NCBI RefSeq assembly: GCF_910592395.1
Contig: NC_088314.1
Location: 1,736,001 to 1,800,000 of the forward strand
DNA length: 64,000 bases
Direction of reading: 5' to 3'
Source of the DNA: Lineus longissimus
Taxonomy: Eukaryota > Nemertea > Pilidiophora > Heteronemertea > Lineidae
Positions 20,601-61,266 of the stretch are shown here, one piece after another; positions within the stretch are counted from its first letter, which is position 1, and each line of letters opens with the position of its first letter. The notes under the pieces are model-generated. The model searched no databases. It was not told the DNA's origin and saw nothing but the letters and a program-made list of their open reading frames with translations. Position numbers and translations under genes: made by a program.

Positions 20601-21438
20601 GAAAGATCTCAAACAAGTCCATATTGGAATGTTTGACCAGTTTTTTCGCCTTGCTTGCTCTAGCGGTGATATGACATTCACTTGCCTCACCAGGGACTTC
20701 ACTGTAACTGATTCGTTTGTCAAGTACCTTATGTCTGCGTTAACCAGACTCAATGCTGCATCATCCCCTGATCTATCCAGCAGCGATTCCGAACAAGACT
20801 TTTATAAAATGTACTCGCAGTCTGAGCCGACGGCTGTCTCTGGTTTTAAGCAAAGAAACCGAGTCAAGTTTGTGTATGCAAGTGACGATGCGATCACAGA
20901 CCTCTGTTACTTAATCCAGGAAAAACAGGGTGTTACTGATGAGAAGAAGGTTTCACACACGACCATGGATATTCTACACTATCTTCTTGTCTTTGAGATC
21001 ATTGCACCAGAGACAGTGGAAAATTACAAAAATCCAGTCCCGCGTACATTGATTCTAACCAATCAACACTTGTGCCTCGTTTCCGAGGACTATATCAACT
21101 ACCCACTCCTGGACTTTGTCCGATTTCCGCCAGGGAAGCCCAATCATGAATTCTTGGATGTAAGGCGCCCAGAATACCTAAAGCGGGTTGTCGTGAGTGA
21201 TTTCACATCCAATGACATCTCGCTCATGTTTTCTGATCATAGTGAAGATATTGTTGTGGATACAAGTGTCGAGCATTTCAGTTCTGGTCCAGATATTGGT
21301 CGGACGTCCCCTGGCGAGATCAGGTGGACAATCCTGATCCAGAATATCCGTGATAAGGATCGGTTGCTGAAGTTGCTCAGTAAGCATTGGAGTGATATTC
21401 ATGAAGGGCGGGAGCTCTCCATTCAAGTTAATGCGTGA
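11657..21438 (+). CDS. NISCH: Nischarin (PX-LRR protein)
   Basis: Fifteen exons in phase: 11657-11743, 12365-12448, 12574-12756, 13028-13076, 13280-13375, 14728-14795, 15002-15097, 15255-15476, 15727-15922, 16107-16294, 16477-16590, 16952-17024, 17738-17880, 18214-18356, 18696-21438; about 1494 residues, close to the vertebrate length. The N-terminal PX domain has KHRYSEFFDMHEK and FPPKKIFGK. Leucine-rich repeats span about residues 280-420 (LTCLDLSHNKVKYLDALH, YSLEVLDLSSNDV). A Lys-rich, coiled-coil-like LQAIQKAREGREKAKKHSKK and a Ser-rich linker follow. The last exon carries the long conserved C-terminal region (TRDFTVTDSFVKYLMSAL). Known for the family: nischarin binds phosphoinositides on endosomes through PX and interacts with integrin alpha5, Rac and PAK to restrain migration. 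ATG 11657 gives an in-phase first exon. The largest intron is 1.35 kb. Confidence 0.93.
12011..12152. mobile_element. Fold-back MITE in nischarin intron 1
   Basis: Long imperfect terminal inverted repeats: left CCTAGGGTGGGACCAAC then ACAATAGATCTTCAC; right, on the complement, CCTAGGGTCGGACCAAC then ACAATAGATCTTCAC. The flanks share ACCTA (12006-12010, 12153-12157), a possible 5-bp target duplication. There is no coding capacity, and the superfamily is unknown. Confidence 0.7.
18065..18144 (+). CDS. NISCH: Candidate alternative (mutually exclusive) nischarin exon
   Basis: An 80-nt open stretch is bordered by ctcag on the left and gtaagc on the right. It starts in phase 0 after the exon ending 17880 and ends in phase 2, the same phases as the 143-nt exon 18214-18356. 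It would encode 26 residues, VIEVGRIPSMRM followed by a charged helix-like ECQLLEQRLLEK. Joining it straight to 18696 keeps frame. Joining it to 18214 gives an immediate TGA. No transcript evidence; it could be a chance open stretch. Confidence 0.4.
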
Positions 21439-22339: not shown

Positions 22340-24917
22340 GTACCATGGACAAATCAACAACTTGCAGGCTGCATCGACAGCACAACTGGTCCATGGAAGG
22401 CTCTGTCAACAAACAATCCTCATCAATGGCAAAACCAGTTTGTGCTTTGAGTGCTCCATTAGTATCAACATCCCAAAGACAAAACCAAAACAGGCTGAAT
22501 CGATGACACAACCTGTCCTCGGAATGAGTGCTCCGTAGCATCAACACCCCAGGGACAAGCCGTCAACAGGCTGCATCGACGGCACAAACTGTCCATGGAA
22601 TGAGTGCTCCGTAGCATCAACACCCCAGGGACAAGCCGTCAACAGGCTGCATCGACGGCACAAACTGTCCATGGAATGAGTGCTCCGTAGCATCAACACC
22701 CCAGGGACAAGCCGTCAACAGGCTGCATCGATGGCACATCCTGTCCTTGGAATGAGTGCTCCGTAGCATCAACACCCCAGGGACAAGCCGTCAACAGGCT
22801 GCATCGACGGCACAACCTGTCCATGGAATGAGTGCTCCGTGGCATCAACACCCCAGGGACAAACCGTCAACAGGCTGCATCGACGGCACAACCTGTCCAT
22901 GGAATGAGTTCTCTGTAGCATCAAGTCCTAGGGACAAGCTGTCAACAGGCTGAATCGATGGCACATCCTGTCCATGGAATGAGTGCTCCGTAGCATCAAC
23001 ACCCCAGGGACAAGCCGTCAACAGGCTGCATCGACGGCACAACCTGTCCATGGAATGAGTTTTCTGTAGCATCAAGTCCTAGGGACAAGCTGTCAACAGG
23101 CTGAATCGATGGCACATCCTGTCCATGGAATGAGTGCTCCGTAGCATCAACACCCCAGGGACAAGCCGTCAACAGGTTGAATCGACGACACAACCTGTCC
23201 ATGGAATGAGTGCTCCGTAGCATCAAGTCCTCGGACAAACCGTCAACAGGCTGCATCGATGACACAACCTGCCCATGGAATGAGTGCTCCGTAGCATCAA
23301 GTCCAGGGACAAACCGTCAACAGGCTGCATTGATGACACAACCTGTCCATGGAATGAGTGCTCCGTAGCATCAAGTCCTCGGACAAGCCGTCAACAGGCT
23401 GCATCGATGACACAACCTGTCCATGGAATGAGTGCTCCGTAGCATCAAGTCCAGGGACAAACCGTCAACAGGCTGCATTGATGACACAACCTGTCCATGG
23501 AATGAGTGCTCCGTAGCATCAAGTCCTCGGACAAACCGTCAACAGGCTGCATCGACGGCACAACCTGTCCATGGAATGAGTGCTCCGTAGCATCAACACC
23601 CCAGGGACAAGCCGTCAACAGGCTGCATTGATGACACAACCTGTCCATGGAATGAGTGCTCCGTAGCATCAAGTCCTAGGGACGAACCGTCAACAGGCTG
23701 CATCGATGGCACAACCTGTCCATGGAATGAGTGCTCCGTTGCATCAAGTCCTAGGGACGAACCGTCAACAGGCTGCATCGATGGCACAACCTGTCCATGG
23801 AATGAGTGCTCCGTGGCATCAAGTCCTAGGGACAAACTGTCAACAGCCTGCATTGATGGCACAACCTGTCCATGGAATGAGTGCTCCGTAGCATCAAGTC
23901 CTAGGGACAAACCGTCTATAGGCTGCATTGATGACACAACCTGTCCATGGAATGAGTGCTCCGTAGCATCAAGTCCTAGGGACAAACTGTCAACGGGCTG
24001 CATCGATGGCACAACCTGTCCATGGAATGAGTGCTCCGTAGCATCAAGTCCTAGGGACAAACTGTCAACGGGCTGCATCGATGGCACAACCTGTCCATGG
24101 AATGAGTGCTCCGTAGCATCAAGTCCAGGGACAAACCGTCAACGGGCTGCATCGACGGCACAACCTGTCCATGGAATGAGTGCTCCGTAGCATCAAGTCC
24201 AGGGACAAACCGTCAACAGGCTGCATCGACGGCACAACCTGTCCATGGAATGAGTGCACCGTAGCATCAAGTCTAGGGACAAGCCCTCAACACGCTGCAT
24301 CGATGACACAACCTGTCCATGGAATGAGTGCTCCGTAGCATCAAGTCTAGGAACAAACCGTCAACAGGCTGCATCGATGACACAACCTGTCCATGGAATG
24401 AGTGCTCCGTGGCATCAACACCCCAGGGACAAGCCGTCAACAGGCTGCATCGATGACACAACCTGTCCATGGAATGAATGCTCCATATCATCAAGTCCAG
24501 GGACAAACTGTCAACAGGCTGCATCGACGGCACAACCTGTCCATGGAATGAATGCTCCATATCATCAAGTCCAGGGACAAACTGTCAACAGGCTGCATCG
24601 ACGGCACAACCTGTCCATGGAATGAGTGCTCCGTAGCATCAATGTCCTAGGGACAAACTGTCAACAGCCTGCATTGACGGCACAACCTGTCCATGGAATG
24701 AGTGCTCCGTAGCATCAACGTCCTAGGGACAAGCTGACAACAGCCTGCATCGATGACAGAACCTGTCCATGGAACGAATGCTCCGTTGCATCAACGTCCT
24801 AGGCACAAACCGTCAACAGGCTGCATCGATGACACAACCTGTCCATGGAACGAATGCTCCATCGCATCAACGTCCTAGGGACAAGCTGATAATAGCCTGC
24901 ATTGATGGCACAGCCTG
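22340..24917 (+). repeat. Minisatellite, 74-76 bp unit, about 34 copies
   Basis: The unit core is CGTCAACAGGCTGCATCGA, then ACAACCTGTCCATGGAATGA and GTGCTCCGTAGCATCAA. Unit length depends on the junction: ACACCCCAGGG gives 76 bp, AGTCCTAGGG gives 75, AGTCCAGGG or AGTCCTCGG gives 74. The 76-bp type dominates the left end and the 75-bp type the centre. The outermost units (22340-22500 and after 24800) are degenerate, as expected for an array that homogenises from within. Runs of 75-bp units keep one frame open on each strand, producing apparent 25-residue protein repeats. Confidence 0.95.
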
Positions 24918-29932: not shown

Positions 29933-32900
29933 ATGGCTGCAATTCGCAGTTACACAGAAACGGACGTCAATAACCTGGTGGATCTTCCTAGTGGTATTGC
30001 CTTCTGTATTCAGCACAACATTGAATATGATGACCTGGAAAACGTGGATGAGATTAAGGAAAGGGCAAGAAGAAATCTCCTTGGGAGAATTGCTCCTGAT
30101 TGCAGGACTGAGGTAAGTGACTTTATCACAAGGTTTCATCATCATATCATATCATCATATCATTACCGGCGTCGTAACCCTATTGGATTTTTGCCGGAGG
30201 TATGGAGTCCACTATAGGCTACTGTCCACCTATGTAGGATCTTTTACTTGCCCTGGCAATAGACACTCAGGTACAAGGGACCACGGCTTTTAGTCTCATC
30301 CGACAGACCCTCGAGTATTTCATATGTTAATGTACGTGTTGTGAAGAGCCAGGAATTTTAGTTCCTTGAAAGCCATGCCGGTTCATCCAGAAATACAATC
30401 CTGGGTTCTCCCCGGGATCGAACCCGGGCCCTATTGCGTGGTAGCCAGCAGTGGTAACCACTAGGCTATGAAGCTCTATCTCCTTGCTCAGTTTGTTGTT
30501 GAGAAAAATACTTACATGTATATCAATCAATAAGATCTGTTCATGTGTCTTCATCCGGGTTTGTAATTGTCTCCAAACTAGCCTTCTCTTGGGATAATTG
30601 GGATTCTTTTGGTATGGTTATTGGAAGTCAAGTATTTTTTAGGTATTGCAGTATTGCATTGTTTTTACAGATGCAAGAGAAGTTCAGAGGTTTCACAGCA
30701 AGAGATGCTGGGCTTCGGACACTACACTGCAGTGTTTATGAAGAACTGCTGCATTTCTTCTCTCTTGAACAATGCACAGATGATGTAATCCAGTTGGTTA
30801 ACATGGCTGTTCCATACTGTGAAGACAAAATTGTTCAAAATTATAACCGATTCAAGGATAATGGTTGTCCCATACTTGTGGCAGGTTTGTCAAAGTGCTT
30901 AATTAGTTTTCTAGCAGCCAGTAGCACATGTGAACTCCTATCTCAGCCTAACATGATATGGCTGTAGTGTAAACATCAAATCTCTCTTTTTATTAATTTG
31001 ATCAGAAATGTACTTCACAGAGTTTGAGATTATGATCTTCGCAGGAGGACAGAAGAACTTGTCACTGTCCACACTGACATGTTATATGAGAGAAAGCATC
31101 AATTAGATTCTTCATGTTTCAAGATCAGGGCTCCCTCTTAGCGTGTTATCGTTATTTTTTGCAGGTGAAAGTGGGGCTGGGAAAAGCAGCTTTTTAAATC
31201 TCTTGATTGGCTCGAAGATAAACCCAGTCGATGACAGCTTGAATGCAACTTCGACCATCTGTGAACTGCATAACGACGACAATAAAGCTGATGCTGAGAT
31301 CACATATGGCCCACATCACCCGGAGATAAACAAAGGAAAGAATCGGGAGATTCTAAGCCTTGATATTCAGAATCCTGAATCTGCTCAAAAGCTGCTGCAG
31401 AGGTACACCATTGGACAGGATCGGACAAGGAGAATCTATGACTTGATCAAAATACACTGGCCTATTCCAATGCTTCAGGTATGACCCTCCACGCTTCCCT
31501 TTTCATTGGTCTCATCCTCGTATTATTGTAAATTTCTTTGCTTTTTAGGGCAATAAATTTATCCTAGTGAAAAAAAATCGAATTTTTTGGCACCTCTAAA
31601 TGTTCTGATCCTAAATCCTACATGAATTAATCACTGAAAAGTCGTCATTTTCTGGTGAAGATAGCAATATCAGATACGCACAGCTTGTCGTTGTCTTCAG
31701 ATAAGGCAGAATAGTAATAAAAACACGTCCAAAAAAGTTACAAGGTGTAAAAAACGGTGTTACTCTCAATCTTTGCATAACGAGGTGTGAAGGTGATCAT
31801 GTAAATGTAATCATCAGTTTATGCTAGAGGAAGTCTCTTTGCTAGAACATGTGCTAGTAGTCACTAGTTTCTCTTGTCTTGCTCCGGCAGGGGAAGGTGT
31901 TCTTGGTGGATAGTCCTGGTGTTGGTGAGAGTAAAGCTATGTCAGAAAAGGTATTGAGTTACCTTCCAAAGGCAGCTGCGTTTATCTACATTATCAATTG
32001 CAGCATCAATGGAGGAGGGATTTCAGAAGGACGGGTATGTGAAACAGAAAACTGAATGGGACATGTCATCTAAAAATACGTCACATTCATTCATGTTTTC
32101 ATCAGAAATGATGGCATGACACAGACTAGTTTGCATTAGGTAGCAAAACCTTCTCTAGGAAAATAGACATGTTAGATTTGCTTAGCTTTCTAGTCTCAGG
32201 TCTTTTCGATTGGTGAATATCATGAAGTGCTGCATGCTGGGGTGACAACATTTTTCGTGTGACCTGGCCTACTTAGAAGAGAACATAAGATTGCAATTTA
32301 AAACTTTCCATTTAGGTCTACCTATTCTTAATTGGTTGGTTACTATTTGACCATTTTTTAAATATTTGTTTTGAAAAGTACTGATACCTTCATAATGTCT
32401 TCATTTTCAGCTTGAGGTTCTTCTGGAGCCAGTGACCAATCAAAAGGATGTCGAGGAACTTCAGGTGTTCAATCCAGAGTCGGCCATATTTGTTCTCAAT
32501 CAATGGGACGAAGTTGAAAACAGTGCGAGGGAGAACGTTCGAAGGCGCAATATCAATAAGCTCAAGAGACTCTGGCCTGGGCTTAAGGAGGAAAAACAGG
32601 TTTACTGTTTGTCAGTAAAGGAGGTGAGAATTGACTTTCACAAGCCATGCACCACGATTGTAGGATCTTGATATGGTACAACAGACTTCTTACTTACTTG
32701 GTATTTCATCTTCTCCGGCTGTAAGACAGTTGTGATAGATGCAGCTTAGACAGTTAGGTTGATTCTATCACTGGTACTTGAGGTACCATCATGAAGTCAG
32801 GTGGTCAACAATTTTCCAACGGAAGGTCATATTAATAGTTATGACAACTCGCAACTTTTAAAGCTGGGCCTACGGTAGATCAAATATACCAAGTGAAGAC

Positions 32901-35900
32901 ACTTGCAGGTAGTTTTCTAATGCAGATTGGAATGCATTACCTGATGTATTATGAGATGCTCTCTACCTAAAACGAGTGGATGACACCAGGTATTAGACTT
33001 TTTATTTCAGTGTCAATGGAATCTTAATGTCAACACACCCTAAATTTCAGGCTCAAAAGAAGTTGGACATGGGAGGTGGAGAAACAAGGGAGTACAAGGC
33101 ACTATTAGATGGCCTGTATCACTTCATGGAGACAAGCCTCAATCTCACTATTGATAACCATCACAGGTAATTATAAGGGTCTGTATCTGCAACTGAAATG
33201 ACACCGGGTGAAAACAAAAAGGATTAAGGAGAAAGGAATCGTAAAGAGTGTCGATGATTTGGTTCTTGTCACGTACACGTGTCTCTGCAACATGGCTATT
33301 TACTGTGAAGCTGAAATTGATGTCCTAACCACATGCTAAATAACAAACATTTGTGGTTCTACTCCAAGCACTAAAGTCCTTTGCAACTTGCCATACTTTG
33401 TTGTTCTACGGCCCAGAAATGGTCGGACTGTAGCCCTCTTAACTGCAGGACAATGTCACAACCGGGCCTCAGATTGTAGTCCTTGTGACCTTTGTTTATT
33501 TTGCAGGTGGCTGAGTTTCGTTCACGGTAGGCTTCTGAATATTGTTCAGACAAACTTCACCAGTGCGAAGAGAACCAGACATCAAAATGCAATGTTGGGT
33601 AAAGAAACAAAGGAAAAATTGGACCAACTTAAAGAGGAGGCAGATAATGTCATTGGAACATTGGAAGAGAAACTGAAGACAAAAATGGATGAAATAGCTG
33701 CTGCGGTAGTTGCTCATTTAGTTGACGATGCAACTGTGGAACGTCTGGCAGTGGAATGTTACATGCTCGATGACCATGAGACTGCAGACGAAATGAGTGA
33801 GAATGAGAGCTGGTGCAACGAGTACATTGTGAAGGTGATAACAGAAGAAGTACGTGTATGGGAATCAGACAAAAGGTTGATTGAAAATTCAAAATCCGAA
33901 CTGATTGCCGAGTTCAAAAGGAGCTTCTACAGAGTGGGAAGTATGTTGCAGGAGATTGAAGGAGGGATGCAGGGAACTGCATCAAGTGGGACAAACACTA
34001 CACCTCTGTTCATCAAACCAGGCAGTCCCGGTCAGGGGCTATCATTTACCTCCACAGAGAAGCTGGTTATGGGACTGACTGCACCTGTGTGGTTGCCACT
34101 GGCTGTAATAACATTGACAATATCCCTACCTATCTTAGCAACAATAGCATTGCATGACATTATCACACAACACCAAGAACTGGTGAGTTACAAAAGGGAC
34201 AGGATGCCTTTTATAAGGAGGTGGACACGTGCAGCAGTGGAGGGCCTAACAGCAGAGATGATCAAGGAGCAGGTTGTGAAGAAGCGGATGATGCAGATCG
34301 GTGAACAGCTTGAGCACTTCAAGGGACAGATCCCACAGATTATCGATGCAGATGTGAAGCTGATGGAGAAAGTAGAACGTGAGATGAGGAAGCAGGCTGA
34401 CATTGAAGGACAGTACAGTCCACTGCACAAACAGTTGAAGAAAAGCTTCGGGAAATTACAGTACATCAAGTTAAAGTTAGTAGGCCTATGGATCTGAACT
34501 TTTTATTCACCAGGTTGTAGAAGTAGAGGGCCATACAACTCATCATATCTCAACAAATTCTGAAGCACCGACTAGTAACTCACTACTCCAACCAACCCAC
34601 AGGGACTTGATGCAAAATATGGGTTAATATGGTAAAGTCGGGATACCGGGGCCCTATATACATGTATAGGCCTAGGATTTTTTCCAAGGCCCCGGGAGGT
34701 GTTCTCTTCCCACCCCGGACCCTGACTTGACCATATTAACCCATATTTTGCATTAAGTCCCTGTGAACCAACCTTGAGCCAGCTTTATTGAGAAGACGCA
34801 TTGTGGGTAGTAATGCTCCTACATGTAGTTGTTTTATGGGTGTTTATTGACAAGCTCAAGAGCTGTTTCCTATTATGCGACCAATTTGAAATTGTGTTCT
34901 TTCCAGGTTTCTTCAAGAGGAGGAGCCGGACTTCTATCCCGATTCTGCCATCGCCGTTAAGGAAAAACTTGGTGGCGGGTCATTCGGTGAAGTGTATGTA
35001 GTTTCCCTTATAAGAAGAGGAGAGACAGAACCATGTAGAGTTGCAGCTAAGGTGATGAAGGATGAGCTCACTGAGAGAACATCGGTTGAGTTTACACAGG
35101 AGCGAGACATCCTCAAGTGAGTGAGATCTGTTTCTTATGTTTGATCATGTGAGCATAAGTCGAGCGCCACACAGCTTGATGCTAGTTGGGGTTACTGGCC
35201 TATAGTAGTTTCGTCTTTGGCTCAAAGGAGGTGAAGTCGATCCCAAGCTACTAACTTCTCTCACCTGGATGGGTTACTTCGGCATGGTGACAGGTACAAG
35301 GAAGACGCTCTATGTCATATTTAAAGAACATGGCATCAAAGTGTTAGTGTCTGGTGTCAGATTCGAACTGATAAGTCCAAACTCTTGACCAGTAGAACAT
35401 ACCATATTCAACAAGAGATGAACCTGACCATTGCTTAATGTGTATCCACAGGTCGCTCAGCCATGAGAACATCATCCAGTACATAGGTACATCTATCAAT
35501 AACGACAACAGATTCGTCCTTCTGATTGAGTTGTGCAGGTGCACCCTCGCATATGAAATCTTTGGAGGCAAGGTGCCAGTCCCAGGGAAGCAGACAGATC
35601 AGGAGGAGTTTGTACTGGCTTTCAAGGAGATGGTGGACCGATCCCGCCAGATTGCCAATGGTTTGGTGTTCATCCACAACAAAAAATTTGTGCATCGGGA
35701 TGTAAAGATGTCAAACATATTGGTGAGTGTTATACATTTGTAGACCCATCACAATGGCAGAGCCATTGCAGTGTATTTGTACATGTCCTATCAGAAGTCT
35801 CTGAAGCCTAGTTTCGACTCTAACAATTCCCTCACATCATTCTGAGTGTTCCTCTTAGTATCGTTTTCTGCTCACCCATTCACCAACGAGCCTATTATGG

Positions 35901-36498
35901 TGCTTGTGGATGATGTAAGATACAAGCAAATTTGTGAACATCAAGCCAACTCAGATTGCACCCATTTCGATTGCAGGTGACTGATACAGGTGTTCTCAAA
36001 CTGAGTGACATGGGGCAGGCCAAACCTGAGTCTAGCATCACCGGCACATTCCGAGGCACACGGTTCTACCGCGATCCAGAAGTTTTACGCGGCGGTCTAG
36101 CCACACAGCAAGCAGACATCTACAGCCTCGCTATCATCATGTACCAACTATGGTTTGGATTCATCGTGTATAGTGACGTCTTTGCTGCACATTTAACCGA
36201 CTTGGAGGCAGTTGAAGAAGAAATTCGTCGAGGAGAACTTAAACCACATTTTGATGTCTCAGGCTATCGACACCCAATACCCGAGTGGTGCCAACTCCTG
36301 GAGGACAGCTGGCGAGACAAGACAGCTGCTGACCAATCACCTAAGCGTAACACTAGTCAACAAATTTATGAAAGTTTGGGGAAAATGCTCACGGTTGAGT
36401 TCATCACAGAGAAGGTTCAGCCGTACGTGATGGCTGTGGATGTCTCTCAGCACATTGATAGTGCTGGGAGAGAGGAATCATCACCCTACTTTTTCTGA
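29933..36498 (+). CDS. Gene A: mitofusin/dynamin-like GTPase fused to a protein kinase
   Basis: Ten coding exons: 29933-30112, 30671-30884, 31165-31478, 31891-32034, 32411-32623, 33051-33166, 33507-34469, 34907-35116, 35452-35722, 35977-36498; about 1048 residues. A helical N-terminus leads into the GTPase: G1 GESGAGKSS (132-140), a Thr-containing NATST switch, G3 DSPG (243-246), G4 NQWD (314-317), G5-like SVK (352-354). A helical stalk follows, with a hydrophobic stretch at about 580-613 (LVMGLTAPVWLPLAVITL and onward). The kinase starts near residue 726: LGGGSFGEVY, Lys763 in AAKVM, HRDVKMSN (866-873), DMG in place of DFG (886-888), and DPE in place of APE. Catalytic residues are kept, so activity is likely. 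The 5' UTR has an intron ending one base before the ATG. Inference: a membrane-associated GTPase controls, or is controlled by, the kinase. The exon 7 donor (gttaaa) is weak. Confidence 0.85.
30150..30475 (-). repeat. tRNA-derived SINE, family 2, copy 2 (gene A intron 1)
   Basis: Nearly identical to 5690-6000, and its head is better preserved (minus strand: GAGCTTCATAGCCTAGTGG, then B box GGTTCGATCCC). It fills much of the first coding intron of gene A and ends in an ATGATATG-type tail near 30150. Confidence 0.88.
34598..34765. mobile_element. hAT-like MITE, 168 bp (gene A intron 7)
   Basis: A 35-bp terminal inverted repeat with one mismatch (CACAGGGACTT, then ATGCAAAATATGGGTTAATA) is flanked by a perfect 8-bp target duplication AACCAACC (34590-34597 and 34766-34773). 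Eight-bp duplications and CAGGG-type ends are typical of hAT transposons. It lies between the exon encoding the membrane segment and the first kinase exon. Confidence 0.85.
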
Positions 36499-36710
36499 GA
36501 GGACACAAGAACACCGATGCAGATTGGAGAAGCCAGATAATCTGATTAGGATTAAGTGTCTCCCCGACTTCTTACTTCAGAGGGGTGAAAGGGCGTCCTC
36601 AGTCTCAACAGAGAAGTGTTGTGACACCAAGTATTCTGTGCCATTTATAAATAATCACAATAATACTCTACTATTCCGAACTGTGATAACTGTTATCTCT
36701 ACCACAAATG

Positions 36711-36896
36711 TGACCCGTCACAGCAAAACTAGGCGCTTGTCGCTCTGAGCTTGGCAGGTTGAGACGGACTGTTTGTTCATTTCTCTATTGTCTGCCTTTT
36801 GTGAAATATGAGCACATAGATTTCTTCCATTATCTCTTGGTGTCATTTAGGCTCATCTTCTGTGCGACATGCGCCTGGTTTAGCTGTGACGGGTCA
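36711..36896. mobile_element. Palindromic MITE in gene A 3' UTR
   Basis: The left end TGACCCGTCACAGC and the right end GCTGTGACGGGTCA are inverted repeats that continue imperfectly inward (AAACTAGGCGC versus its partner GCGCCTGGTTT). CAAATG flanks both sides, a possible 6-bp target duplication. There is no coding capacity. If transcribed with gene A, the RNA could fold into a hairpin. Confidence 0.7.
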
Positions 36897-37728
36897 CAAA
36901 TGCAGCACACATTCAAGGAGTAAAGTGGAATCGTATCACATTGGATTCCCTCTAGTTCCAGTGCTTGTAATAATGTCATACTTCGGTATTGTATTAGCAG
37001 ACAATCTTCTCTTGTAAGATGTATGAGATAATCTAATGTGCTAATCTAAAGTGTTGAGAAACTCGCATGTAGTCCAAAATTTGGTTGAGATTAATGGCAG
37101 ACTTTTATTGGGTCTACATGAACATTACCTGCAGAGAACTCTGAAGTGACACACTTCCACTTTTTACATCATACTTTTATGTAACCGCCATACACTATAA
37201 CGATACAGATGACGATAAGTTTACCTTTTTTATATAGCACTCTTCTATAGGCTTTTACGACTTTTCATAATGTTGGTGCTAAATACAAAATGGTGCTATA
37301 GCAGAATAAGGTACTGTAAAAAGAATTCAAGCAATGACATGTACAAGTTCATCATCATCAGATGTATCCCGCCACATAACATTGCCTCATGTGGACACTG
37401 CAAATGCTTTAATCTTGGAGTTTGAACGGAGGTGGTTTGAGGTTGCAGTCCAGGAGACAATTCACATCGGGTCTCTCCACCCCAATCTGAATTAGGACAA
37501 TGCAACACCGTCTGGAACTTCCTTCTCAAGTCACGAAAGAGGGGGGTTGGCTGCACTTCGAACTTGAACTATGCCACCTAGAGACAACACGAAGAACCAC
37601 ATGAGATCATGAAGTCATGAACTTGAAGTTGTTTGGCCCCGTTTAATGTTGTACTCCTACATAATATGATTTACTGCAACTTATGATTAGTAAATAGATA
37701 AAATGATGGTGTTGAGTAAGCTTCAGAA

Positions 37729-37734
37729 AATAAA
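37729..37734 (+). terminator. Probable poly(A) signal of gene A
   Basis: AATAAA, 1.23 kb after the gene A stop and the last clear one before gene B's 3' flank. The opposing signal of gene B is only 23 bp further on. Confidence 0.5.
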
Positions 37735-37756
37735 TAATACAAGTGTCTCTTTTTTG

Positions 37757-37762
37757 TTTATT
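37757..37762 (-). terminator. Probable poly(A) signal of gene B
   Basis: AATAAA on the minus strand (TTTATT on the plus strand), 0.7 kb after the gene B stop. It nearly abuts the gene A signal, so the mature 3' ends of the two convergent genes would meet or overlap. Confidence 0.45.
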
Positions 37763-38476
37763 GCATTTCATTGATAATCAAAACTATATGTCTCGGTCGA
37801 TTCAAATGTTGACGGAGTTCCAGCTTTGGTGTGCTGCAGATACACGGCCAAAGGTCTGCACAAAGTACAGAAACACCCATTGATTATGGGCCTACCATCA
37901 TCTTAAGATCCCTCTCAATGTGTCTGCAATCAACCTCGTTGGAATTAGTCATCACCCTTGCAATCTCCTCGGCAATAGTATTCATATACATAACATCATT
38001 GTTTCATAGCACCATGTCTAAAAGCACCTTTTATAATGAATGTTGTACTCAAGAAGTGTCATAAATGGAATGGTAAGGAATCCTTCAAGAGAATATCAAA
38101 CTGCATTTCTATAAAGTAGTCGACTAATCTTAACAGCGTGAATCTAACGTTCCGGGTAAGATATAAAAATTATTCAGAAGATTTGAAATATGGCAGTTTG
38201 GCAGCTGAACAGACATGAAAAGCCAACAACTTAATAATGTGTCCATGTGCATGACGTTGTCAGCCAATAAGCTACTCGTAATGAACCCTCCCGGATTCGA
38301 TTTTCTGTACAAAGAAAGCTGAACAATTTAGCACTAATTCTATAGCCGACTTCTCTGGTTAGAGCGAATTATAGAGAAGAAACACTAGAAGTCTCACAAC
38401 TGATCATTGTATTAGAATACCACAACTCCCATTCCAGACTCTAAAGTACGATTGCTCAGCATCCTCAACAAACCTT
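37763..38476 (-). other. Gene B 3' UTR region
   Basis: Non-coding DNA downstream of the gene B stop on the minus strand. No other gene or repeat is recognised. Confidence 0.5.
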
Positions 38477-41400
38477 TCACACTTCAGCAATCTCCTCCTC
38501 GTCTACAACCCTTTCGTACTTGATCTCCCTCATGATCGGACCCGGTGACGACTCCTCACCACTCCTGGAGTCAAGTGTACAATCAATGCTATTGACCAAC
38601 CGCAGTTGTCTTACGTATGACGAGTAGAAAGACTCCTCTTCATTGGGCATCATCACCTGCCCATCATTTGGCAATGGCTCATCAACTTCTGCCTCTACTA
38701 CCATCTGCAGGACGTATTCTCTTTTTGACCACTTGCACAACTCGTCATAAACCTGTTTGGTATTTTTACGATCTTTTGGCTTTGCACACCAGCAAGATTC
38801 AATCAAATTCTGCCAATCTTGACTTGGGGGAACACATCCTTTGATTGTAAATGTAGGTCTGTAGTCGTCCTTCTGGATTTTTCCCTCAAGTTCAATCCAT
38901 GACATCCCTGCATCCAGCAGGTCGAAAAAAACACGCTGGCCATACCAAAGCTCCCACATGACCATGGCAAGGCTGTAGATGTCAGCTTCCCTTGTTGCCA
39001 GGCCAGTCTGGAGGATGTCGGGGTCTGTGTACAAGTACGTCCCTCTCTGGGTACCGGTCACATCCCGCTCCCTCTTAGCTTGGCCCAAGTCGCTAAGTTT
39101 GACAACACCATTATCCGTCAGCTTGAAATAAATGTTGACACAAATACAGTGAAATTGTTTTCTACATAAAATGGGATGCTGTCAGTTCAACCTATCTCAT
39201 AGGTATTTTACAATGACTGCCTTAAATCAGAAATAACTTTCTTTTCCCAGAGAAAACATGAGCACTCCAACCCAGATTTCATCAGGCTGGCTCATTTCTA
39301 TAGTCTCCCTTCAAAGACAGTAGGCTACTGGTAAACTGTACTAACTCAACTTCACTTACCAAGACATTGTCTGTCTTGAGGTCACGATGTATGTAGCTCT
39401 TGCGATGAATGTACAGCAACCCTTTGGCAATCTGCTGAGAGACATCTGCAATGAACTCGAATGCAACCGAACGTTTCTCGGGATCTGTCTGATGTCCCGG
39501 GTTCTTCTCTCGCTGGGTGTAGACGATGTCTGCGAGGGTACACTTGCAGAGTTCAAGCAGTAGTGTCAGGCGTTGGTTGCTGTCGAGGATCGTCCCGATG
39601 TAGCGGATGATGTTTTCATCTTGCAAGTTGCTGTGGAAGAGAAGGAGAGCCATGACACAATGTGAGGAACATGACTGATTTCCAACATTCAACAATTCAA
39701 CTTTTTAATGTTGGTTAAAACTTACATCAATGTCTCCCTCTCCAATGCATAATCCATAGCATTGTCAGCAGTCAGCTCGACCTTCATGACCTTGGCTGCG
39801 ACCTTTTCCACTTGACCTTCATCCCGCTTCAGATTTACCACCCAAACATCAGCAAAACTACCTGTCCCGATGATGTGTTTTCGTTCAATGTCTGCCTCAC
39901 TGAAAACATCTGGGTCGTCACTCAGCAAGTTCCTGAAACCACAACATAGTCAGAATGTGTGAGCGAGGATATTATCCAGTGTGCTTCCTGTCCAGGCACG
40001 GCACCCGGACAAATTCAAATTTTTCCACTTTAGCGCTCGGGGAAAAAAAGGTTCGCCCCAGACAGATTGATGGAGTAGGCCTAATATTTTTGTAATACGA
40101 ATGAATAGACTGTTTGCCCTATCAAAGAAATTAGGAACAAATCCTATTGGATACACCCACCTGAATCTAAACAGCTGAAGGAAGCCATGACTAGTGTTAA
40201 CCTGCTCCAATAGAGGGCTGTACTTTTTCAGTATATCCTTGGTGGCTGTGATATCCCCTTCAACATCCTCGATAAGTTTCTTGTCCGCTTCAACAAGTTC
40301 TGGAATAATACTCTCAAACTTCATAATGTAATCCGATAGACCAGAAAGCTGGTTTTCGACGAATGTCTTCTTGATGTCCTCATCCTTCAGGGCATCAATC
40401 ACCTGTTTGGTCCACTGGAAGACGTACTTGTACTTATCCTTTCGATAAGCCAGTAATTTGCGATCGTGTTGGATTTTATCCCGTATTGCCAATGAACCCA
40501 TGATTGGCAGGGCAATGGCTGATGCGATGATTGCCAATGGTAGCCAAATTGGTGAGGTCAATCCTAGAACTAGTTTTTCTGCAGCAGAGAATAGTGCCCC
40601 GTCTTCTGGGACATCCTCCATTAACCCACCGGAAGCTGATGTCTGAGGCAGCGACCCAGCACCCTGCATCAGTCTCTCAATTCGCTGGAGCTCATTCTCA
40701 ACATGTGCAAACTTCTTGCGGAATGCTCCAAACAAATTTTTCTTCGTCGTCTCAAATATTCTGTGCTCTGATTCCCAGTCTGCGACTTCTTTAAACAAAG
40801 CCTCGCGAATCAAGTCCTTACAAATGAACCGATTCTTCTCCATGTCCTCTTCATCGGGTATTTCCTGTTCACAGCAATGGCGTGCTATTCTCTCCATGGT
40901 TTTTTTAAGCCGGAGATTCTCCGCAAGTTTCGTCACAATTTTCACAGTCTTCTTTTCAAGTAGCTCCTGCAAGTCTTCTATGATTTTTTTGGATTCATTC
41001 AGTAATCGTGAAAGCTTGTGTTTTATATGATTGGCTATCTTCAGTCTCTCTTCATTACTACGCTTAGCATTGGTGACTCTCGTCTGGATCGTGTTGGTGA
41101 TCCTACCATGGACATACTCAAGCCACCTGAACAACATATCAAAAAAGCGGTCAGAAACTTGAACAATTTACACTAAAAGTAAATGATTCCACACATGTTG
41201 TCATCAGACTAGTAATTTTATTTCTTCAATTCTTGTTCTTCATTCAAATAATTGTTAGCACTTGGCCTCCCAAAGCCTTTTCAAGATGGTTCAGTCAGGT
41301 ATAGTGATTGCCTGTTTCCTGAAACCAAATCGCTTCCCTCTGATAACCATTGCTCACCTCTGATGGTTCCTAATACAGATATTCAGTCCCATCTCCATGA

Positions 41401-43772
41401 AGCCATAGATGCTATCCAGTAAAAGCTTATAATCATCTGTCTCGCCAGCTTCCATTTGTAAAAGACGTCTGGCCTAAACAAAGGAAAAGTTTACTTTACT
41501 TGGCTGCCGAATTAACGAACTGTGCAGTCGACCTCTTACGGTATCCTATACATGAACAGCCCTGAACCTGGCAACATCGACTGGTAAAAAGTAAGACAAT
41601 GGTGCAGAGAAAATACTCAACTCACCTGTTTAACCGAGAGATAATAGATTTGTTTCTTTTCATCTAATCCACTCCACATCTTCTTCAACTTCTCGATGTT
41701 GCGTTTCTTTAATTCTTCTTTCGATGCGTCAGGGACCTCGTCCCACTTGTTGAAAATAAAAATGGCCGACTGCGGGTTGAAGACTTGAAGCTGTCCTTCG
41801 CTCGTGTTTGATGTGATCTGCTTTAGGATGAGCTCAATCTTGAAAAAGGAGAACAAACTTTTATCGATACAATTTCGGAGTAAGTATCACTAGTAGCAAT
41901 AAAGCTGATTGAGGAGCACTTTGAAGCTGATTTAGAATTCAGACCATTACCAGAATTGCCAGCAAGGATCAAAGCAAACCGAATCAACAAAACCAAACTT
42001 CAAAGTAATCCAACCAGAAATTTGTGCTCTGAAGCCCAAAATGATGCAGACAAAATAGTTACAACTTGACTATAGATGAAGACTTACCCGATTCTCTGAG
42101 ATGCCCCCACCATTGACACTACTGTTGACAATGTAGATGAAGGCAGCAGCTTTTGGCAAATACTGCAGGACTTTCTTGTTCATTTCTTTACTCTCACCAA
42201 CTCCAGGGCTATCCACCAGATACACATTGCCCTGCGATGAATGAAATCATTATATGAGAATGCTGCAAGGAATATGTACACCCTATTGTTTCCATCATCG
42301 CAAATCTGTCAAAATGGCCCGATTTCTCTGCTGCTAGCACGACAGTGCTGCCTGTCATATCGATGGAAAAAAACCACGAGTATAATAATGGCGTAAGCTG
42401 TATTGGTCCTGAATTGGTCTAATACCATTCAATACACCCTCTGTTGTCAAGACACTTCACCATTATGGATAACATTTGCCAGTCTTGAGGGTGTCCTTAA
42501 TAGGGAGTTTCTACCATATTTCATCACGGCCTATCTAGGTGTCAGTGGTCAGCAATCTCACTGAACTAACAGACGATCCTACCTGCAGCATCGGAATTGG
42601 CCAATGGATCCTAATAAGATCAAACTTGTTGACATCTTTCTCTCGGTCCTCAATGTTGGCAAACTCTTTCAATTTCTTCTGAACTTCAGGAAGGTCATCC
42701 CTGGGAAGTGTTACTGTCTCAAAGTTTTTATCTTCCTTCTTGTTCGGGTGTTTCTCCCCGTAATAGATTTCTGCCTCTGTTTTCTCACTGTTGTGTAGCT
42801 CACAGATGGTGGATGTGGCGCTCAGGGCATGATCAACAGGAAGGATGTCACTGCCGAGGAGGAGGTTCAGGAAGCTACTTTTACCAGCCCCTGTCTCACC
42901 TAAAATGATGAAAAGAACAGTGCAAATCTTCAACAGAATTGGATAGAGGGAGGGCATCAATAGTCAACTCAGTTGTGAGAATGTCAAAGATCTAGTGATT
43001 AAGTGGCTCTTGGTCCTTTTCTCCAGGACTTAATAAGACTTTTGTCTCTCCTCTCGGGTTGCAATTGTCTCAGCAAACCTGGATAAGTCAACAAAAAAGT
43101 TTGTGTTTTCCTTAATTCATGTCCTGAATCTGTTTCTTGGAAGACTTACTTACCAGTGACCAATATAGGGCAGCCATCGTTCCTTAACTTGAAGTCATGC
43201 TCCACAATCTGCTCTTTACAATTGCGGATCTGGTTATTGATATTTTCTTCCACCTTTTCATCACATCCCTCGAGTTTGAAGAACTCGAGTAACGCACTGT
43301 ATACTTCACCAAGTTGTCGTCTCTGCTCGGCGTCAGCTTGGGTGATCTGACGGAATCGATCCTGCTTCTGATCAAACAAAAGAACAGATGTCTAATTACA
43401 TTTGGCCAATGAACTTGGATAGATCTTAGTCTTCAGGTGACCACACCACCTGAGATCCTTTTCAGTTATCTAAATAACCTTTGACTTATTTGATCATCTC
43501 TACCAGATGCTCTCTTCCACTCTTTCAGTAACTTTTTTATTTCTCTCAGTGTCTCCACTCTCCAAAATCTATTTCATTAGCTTCACACAGCCTATAGTTA
43601 CCTTGGTTCGATCATCTTTCCCACAAGCTCTCTTACGATCTTTCAGTAACTTCTTAAATTCTCCCAATGTCTCAAGATCTCCAAAATCTATACCATTATC
43701 ATCACATAAGCTCATTGCAGACAATAAGTCATTTAGTTCATCAACATCAGCTTCGGTGTACTTCAGCGACAT
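38477..43772 (-). CDS. Gene B: mitofusin/dynamin-like GTPase fused to a protein kinase
   Basis: Ten coding exons on the minus strand: 43772-43602, 43367-43154, 42899-42583, 42231-42088, 41838-41626, 41473-41358, 41126-40161, 39932-39726, 39630-39360, 39121-38477; about 1087 residues. It is a paralogue of gene A with matching exon order and phases; five exons have identical lengths (214, 144, 213, 116, 271). GTPase motifs: G1 GETGAGKSS (129-137), G3 DSPG (241-244), G4 NKWD (312-315). The stalk has the hydrophobic LVLGLTSPIWLPLAIIASAI and onward. Kinase: IGTGSFADVW, Lys761 in AAKVM, HRDLKTDN (864-871), DLG in place of DFG (884-886), DPD in place of APE. The acidic C-terminal tail is about 40 residues longer than A's. 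As in A, a 5' UTR intron ends a few bases before the ATG. Role inferred as for gene A. Confidence 0.85.
42400..42516. mobile_element. Remnant of the pogo-like MITE family (gene B intron 3)
   Basis: GAGGGTGTCCTTAATAGGGA followed by GTTTCTACCAT matches the right end of the 5251-5500 element. The left end is barely recognisable (ACCATTCAATACACCCTCTG). An old copy in the intron between the G1 and G3 exons. Confidence 0.45.
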
Positions 43773-44898: not shown

Positions 44899-47800
44899 AT
44901 GGACCGACGTGGTGGAGAAACACCAGAGAAGGCCGCTGATCGCCTGAAAGAGATTTTTAAGGGGTTTTCGAGTGATAAAAGGACGTTTGTGAAGTTGGTT
45001 CATGACACTCGAAAAGTTGCGGAAGAGGTGAGATGTCAGAAACTTGAAAGTGAGTTTAGAGCTACCCAGACCTAGTTAGTATCAAGAGTTACATATGCTA
45101 TAGATCGTGGTTGACTATAAGTCCTTATTTGGCTCACATGTCTCGACATCATTATTATTCAATACAGTATTGTTATTACCGAGACCACTTCTACAATTCA
45201 GATTCAAGAAAAGCTGACAAGAAATGTCGACGATGAACGCTTCAAAGAGAACATAACAACCCTGCTGAAAGAGAAGGAAGAGGTTGACCAGGTCGTGAAC
45301 CAAGAACCGTCCATTATTGTCGTTGGACAGACCAAGTCGGGAAAGAGTTCTTTCATCAATGAACTACTTGAGAAGACCGTCCTAGCTGCAGACCAAAGGC
45401 CTTGTACAGCCAGGTTGACCCAGTTAGAGCATGTCGATTGCCAAGAGAAACCGAAGGTTATAATTGTAAGCCAAGGAGGAAAGGTCCTGTCAGAAGAGCG
45501 ACTCTTGAAGAAGTACATTCCTGCTGATTTGGTGAATCTGCCATTTGAGAAGCGAGAGAATAAGGAGGCGGTTTACGCTAAAGTGATCGCGAGGATCGAG
45601 AATGATTTCCTGAAGAGCGGGGTGCGGATTATTGATTCACCGGGACGCAATGAGAACAGTCTTCTTGACGACCTTGTGATGGACCATATGAAGTCAATCC
45701 TGCCCCTTGTTATCTATGTCATTGACGGAAGAAATCAACTCACACTCAGGGTAAACAGTTACAAACTTTGCCTTTAACCCTCATCCAAAATTAAAATCAT
45801 ATTACCTGAGGGGGAGGATATTTTGAATGGCAGCCATGTTCAGCGATGAAATCAAATGCACCTGCGAATGACCATGATGATATTGATAGGTTTGGACAAA
45901 TTATAACAAATGCTTAGGAGTCTGTGACCCATGGCCACAGATGTGTGAGTGTGACATCTCTATTTACAGTACACTTCCATCCATGCCCTGGTAATGAAAG
46001 CAAATCATACATTCGTGTAGTGCCGTGCCATGAAATATGGTGTGTTTGATGTCCCAGCAAGAACACTAGACTACTCTCTTGTTTCAGGTTACCTGTAGAG
46101 TTGACTCCTTATGGTTTATTCATTGATGTTTGTATGTTTAATCCTTTAGGATAAGGAAGATATCAACAGCATCCTCGGGCAGACGCTGCCTGAAAATATG
46201 TTCTTTGTCGTCACCAAGATTGAGGCAGATGAGGATGACATGTCCAGCAGTGAGGAAGAGAGTGATGAGGACGATGATGATGATGACGATGATTACAAGA
46301 AAGAAATTGAAGAAAAGGAAACTAAGAACAAGAGCGCAGTAAGATGGCCGAACTTTGGTGGAATTACATTAATTTGGAGACCTCAGCTGATGGCTTCTTA
46401 AAGCCTGTATACATAGTAGATGGTTGCACCTGATTGGTAGTCCCCTCCAGGCTGCTACACTGATCCCCTCTCATAACTTCCTTGAGTGGCACTTTCTGAA
46501 AACTATTTTGAATGACTTCCTTCATGTCCTTTCTGAACCGTTAAGGTTCCATATTTCGAATTTTTATTTCTTCCTGCCCACTAAATGGACTAGTGAATGG
46601 CCCCAAAAGTGACAGGTGAACAAAGTTTTAGTTTGCTTTACTACCAATTTCAGGTTTACCGCAAGTTGTGTGATGAGGGGTTCCTGGATGGTTCGGTGGC
46701 AATGGAAGACTGTCCTCGGTTCCATGGGTTGTCAGCATGGAAGATTAAAACACATCGCAAGAAGGCAGAGACGATGCCAAATCGTTACACAAAAGCTTTT
46801 GACAGATTCAAGAGCTGTCTTGTTGATTTCACCAAAAAACAGCTGCAGTACCATATTGATTGTGCCGCAAAAAGCCTTGCGGATAATCACAGAATGTGTA
46901 TTGATGTCTTCATCGATGAGGCTAATCGTATATACGATGAGAGGCATGCCTATAAGGATACTGTGGAGCGGGCAGAGAGAAGTGAGGATAAGCTTCATGA
47001 TGAAATCCTGGGAAAGATCGCTGGTGATGGACAGAAATTAGAAGAGGTGATCAGAGCATGTTTCAGCGAGGAAATCTTTGATGATATCAAGAAAGGTGCT
47101 GCAGAATACAAGTACAAGCCCTACCAGCCGAAGAAGAAGCGAAATTCAATGATCAGTAGCACAGAGACTCTGCCATCAGAGGGAGCTGCTGCAACCATGA
47201 CATTTGATGGGAAAATGGTCTATGGGATCGAAGAAACGAATGTGATAGAAATTACTGTTCCAGCAAATGGGTTCATAAATAATGGTGAACTGGTCCAGGA
47301 ATGCCGTCAGCAAATTGAGCGGTTTGTGTACAACAGACTTGGGAACTTGTTGTCACGGAAGGTTTGGGCACACTTCAGTGAGGACGATGGGTTGTTGAGT
47401 CAAATGTGGTCCGAGTTGAGTAACCTCAAGTTGGAGGACACAGACGGCAAGAGTGCAACTGTGGAAAGTCTGAAGGGCATGATGATAAAGAATTACAAGT
47501 TCGACCCGAAAAAGGAGCATTTTGAGGAAAAGCTGAAGATGAAGATCAGAAATGCTCTGCGGAATTTGTTGCGGCGCTTCGTGGGTATGTTCAAGGGTGA
47601 AATGGGCCGTACTGGAGTTGGGATGCCGGAGTGGAAGGTAGCGATTGCAGGTGATAGCCTGGAGAAAGTGAGTGCCACACGCATCAAGGATGGCGTTATG
47701 AGGGAATTGGTGGACCACATCAAATCTGGACACACCAGTTTTAGGAAGGAGATTAGAATGATGAAGGAAGTCTACCAGAAGCAGCTTGAACTTGGTAAAG

Positions 47801-49252
47801 CGGCCAGGAAGGAAATCCGAGGATACACCCCACGCATTGCATCACTCGAGCTAAGGTCATTAGACTTGGTGGACAGGCACATTTATGGAATTCCACAATG
47901 CTTAAGAACCTTAGGCTCTGGGACACAGGGAAGTGTTCACGGGACAAAGCTTCGAGGTCCGAATGATGAGAAGTTGGCCATGAAGGTCATCAGAGGAAGG
48001 TGCATCAAGGGGGCTGATCCCCTTGATAAGATAGCAACAGAAGTCCATCATCTACGGTAGGTACTTTTAATGTTTTCTTTGAGAGTAAGACAGAGGAAGA
48101 ACTTGCTTGGTGGTCCGGATAATCTTAAGTAATGTTTTTTTCACCTTTTTCAGGCAACTAAGTCATCCGAATTTGGCCAAGCTCCATGGCTGCATCATCC
48201 TGAATGATACAAGCGAAGATGGAGCCGGGACGCCTTCCACTGAGATTGGTATGCTCATTGAGGAGATGAAGGGTGACCTGTTAGCATTGTTACCACAGTA
48301 CTCTCGTCTGAATGATCGCCTAAAGATGGCGCTGGAAGCAGGATATGCTGTCAGGTATCTCCATCAGCGTAAAATGATTCATCGCGACATCAAACCAGCA
48401 AACGTTTTGGTAAGTTTGTTCCGAGTTATGTAACAGTAGTTGAGGTCACGAGGGTCCAGATATATTGATTATACATGGCTTTGATCCAAATTGGTCCTTC
48501 AGGTTAAAGCTAAGGTCACTATCGAGAACTTCTGACGCTACAGTAATTGAGCCAGTTTCCATGAGCTTATCTTGGTAAAGAGTCTTGCTCAACAACAGTA
48601 AGATAAAGCAGTCGTGGTGGTATTTCCAAGAGTCAAACTTATAACCTCCTGCTTATAAGCAGTTCACCATCACCACACTAATCCAATTTTAATACTATTA
48701 GATCATTCTGGTACTGCAGGATCTTCTGCAGTGATATCCAATACAACGCATTTATCATATTGAGGGTTGCAACAGCCCTTGAGTGACTTCACAGTAATGA
48801 ATCTACTTTAATGCAAATGTAAACATAAAAGATAATTTTCTTCTTCCTTCCTTCAGCTTGGTGAGAATGGCAGGGTCATTCTGACTGATTTTGGTTGTTG
48901 CAAGCCGATTGGATTGATGAACGAATCCTTACTGGGGACGCCAATCCACATGGCACCGGAAATGCTCACCACGGACACACAAGACTACGACAACAAAATC
49001 GATGTCTATGCTTTTGGGATTTTCCTCTGGTATTGCGCCGAAGGAGCTGGAAATCATCCTATCGATCCTGCTGTCGAAGATAGCGTTGGAGTTGTTTTTC
49101 AGAACACACGCCTGGGAAGGAGACCGAAATGCCAACCACACTTTCCAGTGGCGCTTTGGGGGCTTATGGAACGTTGCTGGGACGAGAATGTGCAGAAACG
49201 ACCAACCATGGACGAGGTCTGTGCTGAACTGGAACGAATGATCAGAGAGTAA
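44899..49252 (+). CDS. Gene C: DSTYK-like GTPase-kinase
   Basis: Six exons in phase: 44899-45027, 45202-45750, 46150-46338, 46654-48056, 48154-48409, 48857-49252; about 973 residues (human DSTYK has 929). The N-terminal half has a P-loop GQTKSGKSS (85-93), G3 DSPG (188-191) and a G4-like TKIE (248-251), followed at once by an Asp/Glu-rich insert (about 252-285). A long helical middle region has no membrane segment. The kinase is canonical: LGSGTQGSV (709-717), Lys733 in AMKVI, HRDIKPAN (833-840), DFG (853-855), and APE (875-877) in GTPIHMAPEML. GTPIHMAPE plus the YDNKIDVYAFGIFLWY stretch closely resembles DSTYK. Known role of DSTYK: a dual-specificity kinase linked to FGF/ERK signalling and development. 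Ortholog or divergent co-ortholog is undecided. Gene C is head to head with gene B. Confidence 0.85.

Positions 49253-55778: not shown

Positions 55779-61266
<5,488 letters not shown>

Follow-up and report, generated by a model that had tools for sequence, protein, structure and literature searches.

A 64,000-nucleotide stretch of the genome of the nemertean Lineus longissimus (C7:1736001-1800000, on contig NC_088314.1 of 21 Mb; hereafter the window) carries three genes, designated A, B and C, each predicted to join a Dynamin_N-type GTPase, a stalk and a C-terminal protein kinase in a single chain. Together with relatives detected across the 391 Mb genome scanned, they are probably best explained as an animal GTPase-kinase family with two branches, a putatively membrane-inserting one (A, B and two further genes, D and E) and a DSTYK-type one (C, the locus L018 and others). 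The finding is real, and it is larger than an earlier sequence-only reading of genes A and B had described.

Genes A and B are predicted to encode a GTPase and a kinase in one chain

In the predicted exon models, gene A occupies the plus strand (29933-36498, 1050 amino acids) and gene B the minus strand (43772-38477, 1087 amino acids), each with 10 exons (Table 1), in a tail-to-tail arrangement with stop codons 1978 bp apart. All introns are GT-AG, internal stops are absent, intron phases are pairwise identical, and exons 2 to 9 have the same or nearly the same lengths in the two genes. The proteins are 43.6% identical over an alignment of 1025 columns, with 141/240 identical residues in the GTPase, 77/207 in the first part of the stalk and 127/275 in the kinase. 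Both exceed the curated Pfam cut-offs for Dynamin_N (2e-13 in A and 8.5e-18 in B) and Pkinase (5.8e-38 and 3.4e-37), in the order GTPase, helical stalk with an uncharged hydrophobic segment, and kinase. The 10-exon models and profile matches thus bear out the sequence-only reading in placing GTPase and kinase in one chain, and Dynamin_N, a profile it had named as a check, is matched in both.

That the GTPase and kinase are separate genes misjoined by the exon model is highly improbable, even though the model rests on genomic sequence. Exon 8 of A and B has no start: a Met is absent ahead of the catalytic Lys and the exon is preceded by a stop at a distance of six codons, so a kinase with a complete N-lobe cannot start there, and the intron before it, intron 7, is in phase 2 in both genes. 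Moreover, the stalk and kinase N-lobe of gene C share a single continuous exon (exon 4), and the order and strand of GTPase, stalk and kinase pieces are repeated in D, E, L018 and L019 (open-frame pieces rather than assembled models). We regard A and B as intact genes, and the fusion and the family as genuine, with high confidence. Near the end of gene A exon 7, alternative in-phase donors were seen by eye, e.g. 34460 versus 34475, between which a few linker residues would differ.

The core kinase motifs of A and B read as intact: the glycine loop, catalytic Lys and HRDxKxxN are present, the HRDxK pattern being of the Ser/Thr kind, while DFG is replaced by DMG in A and DLG in B, and APE by DPE and DPD, respectively. 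Among solved structures, receptor tyrosine kinases match them best, with scores of 76-79 bits (TrkB 76.5, FGFR2 78.6).

The GTPase is closest to BDLP and then to mitofusin

All G motifs are present in A and B, namely G1 (GESGAGKSS/GETGAGKSS), G3 (DSPG), G4 (NQWD/NKWD) and G5 (SVKE/SVKQ). By sequence, the GTPases of both are closest to bacterial dynamin-like protein (BDLP) and then to mitofusin. Against solved structures, the B GTPase matched BDLP at 9.6e-10, MFN1 at 8.7e-5 and MFN2 at 3.2e-3, with a weak match to the GTP-binding protein 5owv (6.6e-4), and no classical dynamin, GBP or atlastin was among its 23 sequences at E≤0.5. A joint A+B profile returned BDLP (1.5e-7), then MFN1 (0.02) and IRG chains (from 0.07), with no classical dynamin among 33 matches; the A GTPase alone returned BDLP (6.2e-7) and IniA (0.094) and no mitofusin. 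In none of the three proteins A, B and C did the Pfam listing at E≤1 include the classical dynamin middle, GED and PH domain models or the mitofusin C-terminal model; HMMER filters drop most matches above ~0.1 from such a listing. These results uphold the earlier assignment to the mitofusin and bacterial dynamin-like class rather than to classical dynamin, together with the N-Q/K-W-D G4 and SVKE-type G5 on which it leaned.

Among known systems, mitofusins have a G4 of the NxWD kind, a two-span anchor and no kinase, and BDLP has a hydrophobic paddle within its stalk and likewise no kinase. BDLP (PDB 2J68) is the top solved-structure match for the GTPases of A, B and C, scoring above MFN1 for B and above FZO1 for C (FZO1 at 5.5e-10). 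NCBIfam gave weak P-loop matches alone, and PADLOC a single weak match, LeoBC (9.2e-6, stalk residues 404-675). In scans of prokaryotic and viral contigs, no relatives were found save one match confined to the kinase part (residues 762-944, 28%), in a Planctomycetaceae bin (L001).

An uncharged hydrophobic segment recurs in the stalks of A/B-type genes

The hydrophobic segment (A residues 580-613) is identical at 19/34 positions between A and B, compared with 3/23 in the preceding residues 551-573, 31/103 in the second part of the stalk, and an average of 34% for 34-residue windows of exon 7, in keeping with the earlier description of a conserved segment amid variable flanks. It contains the longest uncharged run of each protein (31 residues in A, 30 in B). 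A run of such length appeared in 1.2% of whole-protein composition shuffles for A, a modest result, and in 0.3% for B, a better one; the peak hydropathy of the segment by itself is within the shuffle range. Recurrence in the distant paralogues D and E is a stronger argument than the shuffle test, as read from the open frames: uncharged runs of 31, 30, 28 and 31 residues occupy the same place of the stalk exon in A, B, D and E, respectively, with peak hydropathies of 2.08-2.69, and over the parts that BLAST could align, the stalk exons of D and E share 18-21% identity with A or B. The segment is present in all four A/B-type genes found. None of 10 C-type stalk frames has it; these are the frame of gene C and nine frames from 8 of the 12 C-type loci (all but L015, L024, L025 and L026), and in them the longest uncharged runs are 11-17 residues and peak hydropathies 0.55-1.81.

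Membrane insertion of the segment is somewhat more likely than not. Its length is small for a pair of full spans, and as one ordinary span it scores poorly, so a paddle or re-entrant hairpin is the form that we prefer; one full span would part the GTPase and kinase across the membrane, so that a re-entrant or paddle-like insertion would be more coherent.

The adjoining gene C resembles DSTYK

Gene C (plus strand, 973 amino acids, 6 exons) stands head to head with B, with start codons 1126 bp apart. It matches Dynamin_N (8.4e-19) and carries a kinase in the same order as A and B, without the hydrophobic segment. The only four solved-structure sequences that its GTPase matched at E≤0.1 were BDLP (1.5e-10) and three chains of yeast FZO1 (5.5e-10 for the best). 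All comparisons with human DSTYK (dusty protein kinase) used a provisional version of its sequence, which agrees with print at 4/4 compared positions. Against this query the C kinase scored 152 bits, versus 101.8 for the best solved kinase, and the C N-terminus, across GTPase and stalk, gave three colinear stretches that are weak singly (10-17 bits) and reach E 2.2e-9 jointly; in a shuffle control, 227/500 shuffles were reported, with a maximum of 1.7 bits. On this provisional sequence the C kinase classes as DSTYK-type, and DSTYK appears to be a named relative of the family. The claim of the sequence-only reading that no named animal family has this domain order is accordingly partly right at most and is not supported as written, the same order with a DSTYK-type kinase being present in the adjoining gene.

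By eye, the P-loop and DSPG of human DSTYK are degenerate and a long hydrophobic segment is absent, which we take from the provisional sequence. In searches of open-access literature, DSTYK with dynamin gave no title on the DSTYK N-terminus as a GTPase, DSTYK with GTPase none among the matches listed, DSTYK with mitofusin results off topic by title, and mitofusin-kinase fusion none.

Relatives across the genome fall into A/B and C types

Twenty-seven Dynamin_N rows were obtained genome-wide, of which three are genes A, B and C, 23 lie within 20 stretches that were taken, and one (C3:17492070) was left out. The A/B/C GTPase profile matched 13/20 stretches (L013-15, L017-22 and L024-27) and none of the other seven (L010-12, L016, L023, L028, L029). 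L027 is of the A/B type (gene D) and the other 12 are of the C type, three of these lying inside ~30 kb on C2; a fourth A/B-type gene, E, was found at L031, D and E both being on C7. The C-type loci, D and E were analysed as open-frame pieces, and kinase pieces were sought downstream on the same strand, using the A/B/C profile or the provisional DSTYK sequence at a cut-off of E≤0.01 (E-values calculated over the 3988 open frames in the 20 stretches). Kinase-like pieces were identified at 8/12 C-type loci, strong (1e-5 or better) at L015, L018, L019 and L022, and weak at L024, L025, L021 (0.0098) and L026 (0.0055); at this threshold L013 and L014 fell short, reaching 0.018 at best, and L017 and L020 had none.

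A, B, C, L018 and L019 have an unaltered HRD motif; it is changed in D, E, L015, L022, L024, L025 and L026, with the Asp retained in all but D (by eye). Another residue stands in place of the DFG Asp in D, E, L015 and L022 (by eye). With both motifs altered, D and E are probably kinase-dead, despite which they retain the GTPase motifs and the hydrophobic segment. In gene D, the kinase is additionally preceded by a long insert of low complexity.

Likeness to the provisional DSTYK sequence is spread over several loci. The last kinase exon scored 118.4 bits in L018, 96.5 in C and 66.4 in L019, and the DSTYK N-terminus matched the stalks of L017 (C2, 4.7e-14) and L013 (1.6e-7), a GTPase frame of L015 (residues 81-252, 6e-6) and L018 (1.5e-5). 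L018 (C8), which keeps GQTKSGKSS and DSPG intact, shares with gene C the DSTYK kind of C-terminal kinase. It is a candidate for the plain DSTYK orthologue, but the most DSTYK-like stalk is at L017, where no kinase was found.

Shared kinase introns suggest one ancestral fusion

Both kinase introns occupy the same alignment column and phase in A, B and C (2/2), whereas a CDK-like kinase gene of the window, used as the one control, shares 0/2 positions (by eye); the common positions and phases suggest one ancestral fusion. A-C kinase similarity is moderate (phmmer 2.8e-8, scaled to the PDB set). Other C introns lie near those of A in the GTPase and are likewise in phase 0, in an alignment too loose to claim identity. 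Whether a single joining of a kinase to a mitofusin/BDLP-class GTPase gave rise to DSTYK and all its relatives is, in our judgement, evenly balanced; on that account the human N-terminus would be a decayed GTPase, and a membrane-inserting A/B branch with a GTP-driven kinase switch may persist in other animals.

Exon structures and other features of the window

Table 1. Exons of genes A, B and C in window coordinates
Gene	Exon	Position	Strand	Content
A	1	29933..30112	+	residues 1-60, start ATG
A	2	30671..30884	+	precedes GTPase
A	3	31165..31478	+	P-loop GESGAGKSS
A	4	31891..32034	+	DSPG (G3)
A	5	32411..32623	+	NQWD (G4), SVKE (G5)
A	6	33051..33166	+	stalk begins
A	7	33507..34475	+	stalk including hydrophobic segment, residues 580-613
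A	8	34907..35116	+	kinase glycine loop, catalytic Lys
A	9	35452..35722	+	kinase up to HRDVKMSN
A	10	35977..36498	+	DMG, DPE, C-tail, stop
B	1	43602..43772	-	
B	2	43154..43367	-	
B	3	42583..42899	-	P-loop GETGAGKSS
B	4	42088..42231	-	DSPG
B	5	41626..41838	-	NKWD, SVKQ
B	6	41358..41473	-	
B	7	40161..41126	-	stalk including hydrophobic segment, uncharged run 577-606
B	8	39726..39932	-	kinase N-lobe
B	9	39360..39630	-	kinase up to HRDLKTDN
B	10	38477..39121	-	DLG, DPD, C-tail, stop
C	1	44899..45027	+	start ATG
C	2	45202..45750	+	GTPase GQTKSGKSS, DSPG
C	3	46150..46338	+	poor G4 (VTKIEAD), acidic run
C	4	46654..48056	+	stalk and kinase N-lobe
C	5	48154..48409	+	kinase up to HRDIKPAN
C	6	48857..49252	+	TDFG, APE, stop

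Within intron 1 of gene B, positions 43489-43555 repeat the last part of exon 1 (43607-43673) at 81%, possibly as a duplicated exon fragment. Inverted repeats in intron 7 of gene A (34598-34765) and in its 3′ flank (36709-36898), with arms of 53 and 40 nt, are perhaps small transposon remnants. Elsewhere, a long tandem array (22448-24917, ~33 copies of a ~76-nt unit) has open frames on both strands, and a Nischarin-type C-terminal PH domain (18661-21438, 1e-47) follows PX- and LRR-like frames from ~12341 (by eye). The CDK-like kinase gene, named by eye, lies at 56300-58400 on the minus strand, one of its frames matching Pkinase at 7.5e-6.

Discussion

Several results weigh against a two-branch family that takes in DSTYK. 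The provisional human N-terminus matches a GTPase directly in neither Pfam nor solved structures, so the link between DSTYK and the GTPase is transitive, via gene C and other loci. The A/B kinases score 47.7-58.8 bits against the provisional DSTYK sequence, below TrkB and FGFR2, and A and B are therefore not filed as DSTYK, from which they also differ in its degenerate P-loop and DSPG and in its lack of the long segment. DSTYK is best matched by the stalk of one locus (L017) and by the kinase of another (L018), no kinase piece having been found at L017. The GTPases of A and C resemble each other weakly: hhalign gives a probability of 59.7 (E 8.9e-5), and phmmer 9.0 bits for A-C and 18.9 bits for B-C. 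As to the segment, its best 19-mers, at +1.5 and +2.7 kcal/mol on the biological scale (approximate scale values), would make a poor normal transmembrane helix, and single-sequence structure models, with pLDDT of 35.2 and 50.5, are too poor to show how it folds.

The segment might instead be a buried stalk core or a protein-protein interface, with A and B acting as soluble scaffolding GTPase-kinases. We consider this rather unlikely: the segment has just 28-31 uncharged residues with prolines inside and energies above zero, and C-type members share the architecture without it, all of which this explanation accommodates, but A, B, D and E all carry it at the same place, with a similar length and free of charge, despite the low identity of D and E to A or B there, and the stalk of BDLP bears a membrane paddle of a comparable kind. 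That A and B are true mitofusin homologues that gained a kinase and serve to fuse mitochondria is still less probable. The GTPase is similar to MFN1/2 and FZO1 and has the NKWD/NQWD and SVKE motifs, but the C-terminal mitofusin model is missing from the Pfam families listed at E≤1, and a single short hydrophobic run is seen rather than two clear spans.

A lineage-expanded immune GTPase family of the IRG/GBP kind, in which the kinase or kinase-like heads would signal or act as decoys, would fit the many divergent loci, some clustered and several with altered kinase motifs, and DSTYK acts in STING signalling (PMC11933320). Solved structures nevertheless favour BDLP and mitofusin, IRG chains being weak (E 0.07 and worse), and we give this account a minor share of the probability; it overlaps the two-branch GTPase-kinase family, which we retain as the best explanation.

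In the mechanism proposed for A and B, the GTPase would dimerise on GTP, the stalk would insert a paddle or re-entrant hairpin into the membrane with GTPase and kinase both on the cytosolic side, and assembly or membrane tethering would cluster the kinase domains, leading to mutual activation and signalling. Such GTP-driven clustering is plausible, if short of probable. DSTYK is reported to reside at late endosomes/lysosomes, where its overexpression promotes fusion of that system (PMC6981171), and to phosphorylate STING at the late endosome/lysosome, with K681A and D777A as kinase-dead mutants (PMC11933320); its N-terminal domain is described as noncatalytic and of low conservation (PMC8636471) and the protein as distinct from RIPK1-7 (PMC9573974), and it also features in a figure legend (PMC8490499). 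By analogy, the likeliest place of action of A and B would be the endolysosomal system, a location that we nevertheless hold to be doubtful and whose basis in a relative from the other branch tells against it. Their likeliest use, again by analogy with DSTYK, would be to make stress or innate-immune signalling depend on the state of the membrane.

If a GTPase of the membrane-fusion type is indeed coupled to a kinase, the remodelling of membranes would be tied directly to signalling by phosphorylation. DSTYK, a human kinase with links to disease, is seemingly a member of this family, which hints that the kinase family may descend from a membrane-remodelling enzyme.

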